In this document: one piece after another, positions 16,757-17,450 of the stretch
Numbering within the stretch: the stretch's first letter is position 1
Layout: each line of letters starts with the position of its first letter
Source of the DNA: Bacteroidota bacterium
GTDB lineage: Bacteria; Bacteroidota; Bacteroidia; Bacteroidales; JAAUTT01
Assembly (NCBI GenBank): GCA_021779665.1
Contig: JAJYAG010000005.1
Span: 20,035 to 84,034 of the forward strand
Direction: 5' to 3'
DNA: 64,000 nucleotides
Notes under the pieces: model-generated
The model's database searches: none
Told to the model about the DNA's origin: nothing
What the model saw: the letters and a program-made list of their open reading frames with translations, nothing else
Made by a program: the position numbers and the translations under genes

Positions 16757-16895
16757 CACCTCACCCCCTGCCCCTCTCCTTGAGGAGAGGGGTGACGCTC
16801 CGATGAGGATTAGTCGCAAAATTTAAAATTATGTTAAAGACACTTTTGTTTGAGGGACAGTTCCCTCTCCTTGAGGAGAGGGTTAGGGTGAGGTG
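16757..16895. repeat. double-hairpin element, copy 1 (CCCTCTCCT/AGGAGAGGG)
   Basis: CACCTCACCC..GGGTGAGGTG outer inverted ends, two internal CCCTCTCCTTGAGGAGAGGG hairpins. Confidence 0.9.
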
Positions 16896-16922
16896 AAAAA
16901 ACATGCTTTACGATTATATTAT

Positions 16923-17312
16923 ATGATTAAACCTTTAAAGAGACCCGATTTTGAGCTTCATTTAGGAGCTGGAAGTAAAATCTATGATAAGGCTGGCGAA
17001 TTAAGGAGGAATTTAACCCCTGCAGAGGAAAAGCTATGGCAAGCTTTAAGAAACAGGAGACTCTGTGGTTTTAAATTCAGAAGACAACATCCGCTTAAAC
17101 AATTTATCGCCGATTTCTATTGCCATGAAAAAAAATTAGTGATTGAGCTTGATGGAGAAATCCATCAACATCTAGTCAATTCAGAACATGATGAAGGTCG
17201 TACATTTGAACTGGAAAGATTTGGTCTAACTGTACTTCGATTCAATAATAATGAGGTTTTACAAAATTTGAACGAAGTTTTGGAAAAGATCAGGAAGGCT
17301 TTGGAATATTAA
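16923..17312 (+). CDS. DUF559 (PF04480) Vsr/PD-(D/E)XK-like endonuclease-domain protein
   Basis: RRNLTPAEEKLWQALRNRRLCGFKFRRQHPLKQFIADFYCHEKKLVIELDGEIHQ is a canonical DUF559 signature; a GTG start at 16893 is possible. Confidence 0.9.
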   Translation: MIKPLKRPDFELHLGAGSKIYDKAGELRRNLTPAEEKLWQALRNRRLCGFKFRRQHPLKQFIADFYCHEKKLVIELDGEIHQHLVNSEHDEGRTFELERFGLTVLRFNNNEVLQNLNEVLEKIRKALEY

Positions 17313-17450
17313 CCTCACCCCCTACCCCTCTCCTGGGAGGATAGGGGTGACGCTCCGACGAAGGTATGTCGCAGAATTTAAAGCATTCTGAAGACAATTT
17401 TGACTGAGGGGTAGTTCCCTCTCCTTCCAGGAGAGGGTTAGGGTGAGCTG
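17313..17450. repeat. double-hairpin element, copy 2, direct orientation
   Basis: CCTCACCCCCTACCCCTCTCC...CCCTCTCCTTCCAGGAGAGGGTTAGGGTGAG; same order and spacing as copy 1. Confidence 0.9.

Follow-up and report, generated by a model that had tools for sequence, protein, structure and literature searches.

A DUF559 nuclease gene between paired double-hairpin repeats in a Bacteroidota genome: a probable small mobile element

Results

The window (the whole 64,000-nucleotide stretch of Bacteroidota DNA that was analyzed) contains a DUF559 gene placed between two direct copies of a double-hairpin element (Table 1). A preliminary description of the sequence had claimed this arrangement, and it is borne out: the two copies are alignable over ~139 bp with a score of 152, and the stop codon of the gene (TAA, 17310–17312) immediately adjoins copy 2. 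Each copy is ~135 bp long and comprises two hairpins, CCCCTCTCC..GGAGAGGGG and CCCTCTCC..GGAGAGGG. The core of copy 1 starts with CCTCACCC and finishes with GGGTGAGG; in copy 2 the final G is replaced by C. These outer tails are inverted repeats of each other, such that the element has terminal inverted repeats. The open reading frame matched PF04480 (DUF559) with an E-value of 6.7e-39 (132.6 bits versus a gathering cut-off of 20.6), and its Pfam matches comprised DUF559 and one weak relative, with nothing else. A GTG start in the last bases of copy 1, as had been proposed, is possible, but conservation favors the ATG (MIKPLKRPDF...), which is retained in the second copy of the unit in the same genome (L002) and has an equivalent in a congener (L035).

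Table 1. Features of the DUF559 unit, in window positions
Feature	Position	Strand	Basis or remark
Copy 1, double-hairpin element	16759..16893	+	Sequence reading, copy-versus-copy alignment, triplex-pattern scan
Copy 1, left triplex hairpin	16759-16792	- (motif)	
Copy 1, right triplex hairpin	16863-16893	+ (motif)	Middle part separates left and right hairpins
DUF559 (PF04480) nuclease gene	16923..17312	+	129 aa from ATG 16923; Pfam profile match
Alternative DUF559 start	GTG 16893	+	139 aa
Copy 2, double-hairpin element	17313..17447	+	Same basis as copy 1
Copy 2, left triplex hairpin	17313-17347		
Copy 2, right triplex hairpin	17417-17447		
Degenerate third right-end hairpin (TTTCTCCTTCTTTGAGAGG...GGGAAGGGTGAGG)	17464..17512	+	Sequence reading; GGGTGAGG at 17505; listed repeat D14

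As described by Holder et al. (2015, PMC4666352), an intrastrand triplex motif combines a hairpin with a third strand in mirror order to its purine arm. Each of the four hairpins in the window unit conforms to this pattern (stem of 6–15 nt, loops of 1–6 nt, third strand a mirror of the purine arm, and at most one mismatch) in our own implementation, which permitted a first loop of up to 8 nt. A search of Rfam returned no match over threshold (best whalefall-1, 24.4 bits versus 37). Two further repeat families lie nearby. A direct-repeat pair of ~230 bp (14221–14446 and 18335–18563; 80–88% alike and 4.1 kb apart), each copy of which terminates in the hairpin TTTTGGTCCTTTTGTGTCATGACAAAAGGAC, encloses the entire region of the DUF559 unit. 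The stretch before copy 1 (GACCACGGTCGACAGACGGCAGACGACGGCAAACAGCCAC, ~16717–16757) is a dispersed repeat that recurs with ~85% identity at four places on G000:C89 (22504–23845) and one on G000:C34 (23358).

The preliminary description had also considered the gene product to be a Vsr/PD-(D/E)XK-like nuclease. A structure search with an AlphaFold model of DUF559 (31-row alignment, pLDDT 88) returned 3HRL, itself a DUF559 protein, as the best match, followed by the catalytic domain of the homing endonuclease I-Bth0305I (3r3p; E = 7e-4, TM 0.76 by target) and then, weakly, E. coli Vsr (1vsr; E = 0.08, TM 0.46–0.48). As modeled, the protein appears closer to I-Bth0305I than to Vsr. Five residues are invariant (E33, D62, E73, H79, and D88), and E33, D62, H79, and D88 may correspond to the EDxHD motif, judging by their order along the sequence. 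Previous work placed YcjD in the PD-(D/E)XK superfamily as a relative of Vsr (PMC1189080) and assigned a DUF559 gene to the EDxHD family (PMC9403480). A Caulobacter DUF559 protein with a functional link to a methylase provokes a DNA-damage response upon loss of a methylase (PMC12907096), which indicates an in vivo capacity of the family to act on DNA.

Searches of the genome contigs for the repeat with and without DUF559, a check that had been called for at the outset, recovered four gene-bearing loci and ~40 other places with gene-less elements in the source genome (our grouping of 70 matches). All four DUF559 genes, on contigs C162 (the window), C66, C57, and C136, are in or between repeats. 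The C162 and C66 units share the repeat–gene–repeat arrangement and an identical repeat type at unrelated loci, with homology limited to the unit itself. The C57 gene is flanked by two copies of another double hairpin (AACCCCCAACCCCCTTAAATAAGGGGG..), and the C136 gene lies within a single element, with the left hairpin on one side and the right hairpin on the other. The recurrence of the unit at the unrelated C66 locus, together with the placement of all four genes, indicates that the arrangement is beyond chance. At the window locus, the gene probably came to lie between two full copies through duplication of an end or through insertion of one unit beside another. At a further locus (L007; G000:C109:247–570), two elements 60 bp apart have the 3' end of a DUF559 gene in between (score of 54 versus a shuffled maximum of 24, in a match that takes in some of the repeat); this is apparently a decayed unit and a deletion derivative of repeat–gene–repeat.

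Among genomes of the genus, element matches numbered 55 in G000, 12 in G001, 1 in G004, and none in G002 or G003, the last being the only one that lacks DUF559. This is suggestive of element number tracking DUF559 in the genus, albeit in few genomes. A count over the order with a single consensus detected elements in 8 of 149 genomes, with at least 10 only in G000 and G028, both of which encode DUF559. The repeat varies from genome to genome, and a single consensus was therefore rejected as too strict an order-wide counter.

Enrichment of DUF559 genes between such repeats, an expectation of the preliminary description, was evaluated in two sets of loci obtained by different routes. Set 1 comprised 61 standalone DUF559 genes in 60 loci from a 393-genome Bacteroidota sample, chosen by HMM score alone, with 358 other ORFs from the same loci, not restricted to isolated genes, as controls. 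The two 450-bp flanks carried matching repeats (score ≥ 40) in 46 of the 61 DUF559 genes (75%) versus 12 of the 358 controls (3%; p = 7e-37), and stable hairpins lay on both sides in 38/61 versus 5/358. Both features combined (with a flank score ≥ 30) characterized 35/61 DUF559 genes versus 1/358 controls (p = 3e-33), and triplex motifs, again by our own implementation, were present on both sides of 29/61 versus 0/358. Set 2, which was assembled through a sequence scan, gave 26/60 versus 2/741 control ORFs for the combined features and 22/60 versus 4/741 for two-sided triplex motifs. Set 1 favors strong DUF559 matches and set 2 favors relatives of the window protein. Among the set 2 loci outside or unassigned to Bacteroidota (mostly Chloroflexota), 7 of 12 had matching flanks. 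In set 1, 11 of the 61 genes lacked clear flanking repeats, which suggests either that DUF559 is a host gene in some cases or that the repeats have decayed.

Phage records yielded just two weak DUF559 matches, suggesting that the family is not chiefly phage-borne. An element on a Synechocystis sp. B12 plasmid (L159, 1400–1850) lies in a region whose annotation centers on a gene for a BREX PglX methyltransferase, such that the element can ride plasmids and enter defense genes. Four Pedobacter species (L081, L084, L086, and L098) carry DUF559 elements at a common intergenic place with differing numbers of genes and hairpin units, including a tandem pair of DUF559 genes in L081 and a small array of right ends in L086.

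The sequence of the repeat varied together with that of the nuclease. Similarity of flanking repeats was correlated with DUF559 similarity across 88 loci (Mantel rho = 0.19, p = 0.002), and 86% of between-genome pairs with a protein similarity of at least 0.7 (n = 14) had a common repeat versus 3% of pairs below 0.4. Within one genome, four pairs of similar DUF559 proteins had common repeats (scores of 68–280), whereas repeat scores for dissimilar DUF559s were at most 48 and mostly at most 31. The repeat sequence thus tracks the nuclease, not the genome. This within-genome contrast indicates that host relatedness alone is insufficient to account for the pattern, to which recent duplication of whole units contributes.

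The window locus had no counterpart in four congeners and hence offered no empty site for comparison; the comparison of empty and filled sites that had been proposed was informative at two other places, the hisA–hisF junction and metH, where gene and repeats are jointly present or absent. In three genomes with an empty hisA–hisF junction, hisA ends only a few bases ahead of hisF. In 11 others (3 sampled genomes and 8 named Pedobacter), an insert with the order C-rich hairpin, DUF559, G-rich hairpin occupies the exact junction and supplants the start of hisF, with DUF559 fused in frame to HisF. Four genomes (L250, L251, L255, and L256) have other DNA at the junction without DUF559, namely another palindromic family (CATTGCGAGG..; GTCATTGCGAGGCACGAAGCAATC..GATTGCTTCGTGCCTCGCAATGAC) that is clear in three and partial in the fourth, giving the junction the look of a hot spot for multiple repeat families.

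In metH, most of 150 Flavobacterium genomes have an unbroken linker of 11–12 codons, and 15 of the 150 have an in-frame insert of ~430–490 bp with both hairpins at that linker, part of the native linker being absent in most filled genes. A phylogenetic reconstruction of 15 filled and 30 empty metH sequences revealed that filled and empty species are interleaved (e.g., filled G508 and its empty sister G663), with at least 11 changes, 6 of which are forced by well-supported branches; a single clade of filled metH was rejected (AU p = 2.4e-31). Distances among inserts showed a partial correlation with those among host flanks (rho = 0.36). This suggests a mixture of gain, loss, and transfer, such that vertical inheritance with repeated loss may explain part of the distribution. 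No target-site duplication was seen at hisA–hisF or metH when compared with empty sites of relatives, which may differ from the exact ancestral sequence, and no consensus insertion target was found.

In-frame insertions of DUF559 with both hairpins also occur in LeuRS (L044, L047, L130, L138, L165, L168, L184, L189, L062, and L065), recurrently at a common site preceding the FTTRPDT segment, with a second site in L092. Others were identified in IleRS (L145), MetH (L171, L173, L179, and L181), and HsdR (L172 and L177); the names LeuRS, IleRS, and HsdR were assigned by reading the protein sequences. The hairpins in these genes are translated as linker peptides such as LSFGEDLGEV and SPLFRRGAGGE. 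In L179, an apparent gene-less hairpin element (SHPSGGIKGG) lies in frame upstream of the DUF559 insert. Among pairs with the same residue in metH inserts, synonymous differences affected 12–13% of hairpin codons versus 45% in the DUF559 body. This suggests that the hairpins are kept as DNA (or homogenized by conversion) and not merely as peptide, although part of this constraint could stem from gene conversion among copies or from an extreme G+C content.

A triplex motif also lies directly downstream of ycjD, the DUF559 gene of E. coli, in strain J53. Such motifs are multi-copy in >260 bacterial genomes, and E. coli K-12 has 23 of them (TMECO), five cases being inverted pairs of types A and B (PMC4666352). 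We rejected ycjD as strain-level proof of mobility since sapF–fabI holds either ycjD or the eef operon, and the latter is not a clean empty site.

Discussion

The gene and repeat are associated with each other, have common boundaries, vary in concert, and at orthologous sites are either both present or both absent. The explanation that we favor, and regard as reasonably probable, casts the unit as a small selfish mobile element comprising a putative Vsr/EDxHD-fold DUF559 gene in terminal fold-back repeats, with the gene-less ~135-bp copies as its non-autonomous, MITE-like derivatives. DUF559 would recognize the repeat ends of its own family, or a target that resembles them, and would nick or cut there; repair would then copy the element into the break in a homing-like manner, and gene-less copies would be mobilized by DUF559 in trans. 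Co-variation of repeat and nuclease sequences would be predicted by such recognition. The lack of an apparent target duplication fits break-and-copy but is not decisive. The preliminary idea of a nuclease that spreads its own flanking palindromes is thus supported by the gene–repeat association and the joint presence and absence, which run counter to both outcomes that had been named beforehand as refuting it (a lack of enrichment, and empty sites at which gene and repeats had not moved together). It has to be widened, given that the gene is also located inside one element or in frame in housekeeping genes. The accompanying analogy to REP sequences and RAYT holds for the arrangement of gene and repeats but not for the enzyme, which in structure is closest to homing endonucleases and Vsr.

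Alternatively, and as the chief competing explanation, DUF559 could be a passenger, either addictive or useful to the host, on MITE-like hairpin repeats that are moved by an unrelated enzyme or by template switching during replication or repair. The majority of copies are gene-less and triplex or cruciform DNA is unstable by itself (PMC4666352), as this alternative would have it; yet DUF559 is the cassette gene in all lineages examined, the repeat tracks the nuclease subfamily even inside one genome, and the ORF has a predicted nuclease fold akin to that of homing enzymes. We therefore consider a passenger role rather unlikely. It is improbable, too, that DUF559 serves the host as a nuclease, either a Vsr-like repair enzyme or a structure-specific one, acting on triplex or cruciform repeats and kept adjacent to them by selection, in the absence of selfish mobility. 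The Vsr-like fold, the methylase link of the Caulobacter protein (PMC12907096), and the stability of E. coli ycjD at sapF–fabI across many lineages are all compatible with such a host function. However, a repair enzyme that acts in trans has no need to sit within its substrate, genomes encode several divergent DUF559 copies each with its own repeat, and in-frame insertions are scattered among unrelated essential genes with empty sister species.

Hairpins per se are common, flanking 28% of control ORFs on one side or both, and the repeats might accordingly be intrinsic terminators or G+C-rich intergenic hairpins that surround isolated genes by chance. This is refuted, and very improbable in our estimation, because paired matching two-sided repeats characterized only 1/358 controls and two-sided triplexes 0/358, because hairpins are in frame within coding genes including metH, and because the association appears again outside Bacteroidota (7/12 loci).

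Among known systems, the EDxHD homing endonucleases (I-Bth0305I) and free-standing homing endonuclease genes (PMC3943268) resemble DUF559 in nuclease fold, in the order of EDxHD residues, and in scattered presence and absence at fixed sites in conserved genes. Unlike these, DUF559 comprises a catalytic domain alone (~110 residues). Its inserts, as read from the sequences, are in-frame domains or hairpin-bounded intergenic genes with no intron, intein, or splicing, and it has terminal hairpin/triplex repeats and gene-less repeat derivatives. REP/REPIN sequences with RAYT (tnpA-REP) likewise feature palindromic repeats around a single gene for a small enzyme, with numerous copies that lack the gene and with repeat–enzyme co-variation, but DUF559 has a PD-(D/E)XK/Vsr-type fold and is not an HUH/Y1 transposase. 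The DUF559 cassette would thus work like homing genes and REP–RAYT pairs and yet be a member of neither, given its terminal repeats and apparent lack of an intron or intein on the one hand and its lack of an HUH transposase on the other.

MITEs and Rickettsia palindromic elements are short inverted-repeat elements, some of which lie in frame within protein genes. In contrast to MITEs, the autonomous partner here would be DUF559, with no DDE transposase and no target duplication seen. Vsr repairs T:G mismatches and is encoded beside a methylase. It may share a fold family with DUF559, and YcjD and Caulobacter VsrA count among DUF559 or Vsr-like proteins (PMC1189080, PMC12907096), but the DUF559 genes described here are repeat-linked and scattered, and no methylase gene was noticed next to the window gene. 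TMECO repeats have the same design as those reported here (pyrimidine arm, loop, purine arm, and mirrored third strand) and likewise occur as inverted pairs of types A and B (PMC4666352); they were described without a mobility gene, whereas the present repeats are tied to a nuclease gene and inserted jointly with it.

We found no open-access paper that links DUF559 with such repeats. It is possible, and we advance this tentatively, that DUF559 with paired intrastrand-triplex hairpins constitutes a hitherto undescribed class of selfish elements that spans the bacteria. Distinct from introns, inteins, IS elements, and RAYT, such an element would home into genes in frame with no need for splicing, and would be the missing engine behind widespread TMECO-type repeats, including those of E. 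coli (YcjD). Hundreds of bacterial genomes contain abundant triplex-forming repeats, which correlate with genome rearrangement, but the gene that spreads them had not been found, nor had a mobility gene been found nearby (PMC4666352); the DUF559 cassette is a likely source of such repeats, whose spread had lacked an explanation. The pairing offers a testable engine for these repeats and a function for a large family of ‘unknown function’ that includes E. coli YcjD. It also presents a putative selfish element able to persist within essential genes, such as that for LeuRS, through in-frame reading. If each nuclease recognizes its own repeat, then the DUF559 family would also provide a naturally occurring set of small nucleases, each paired with its target.
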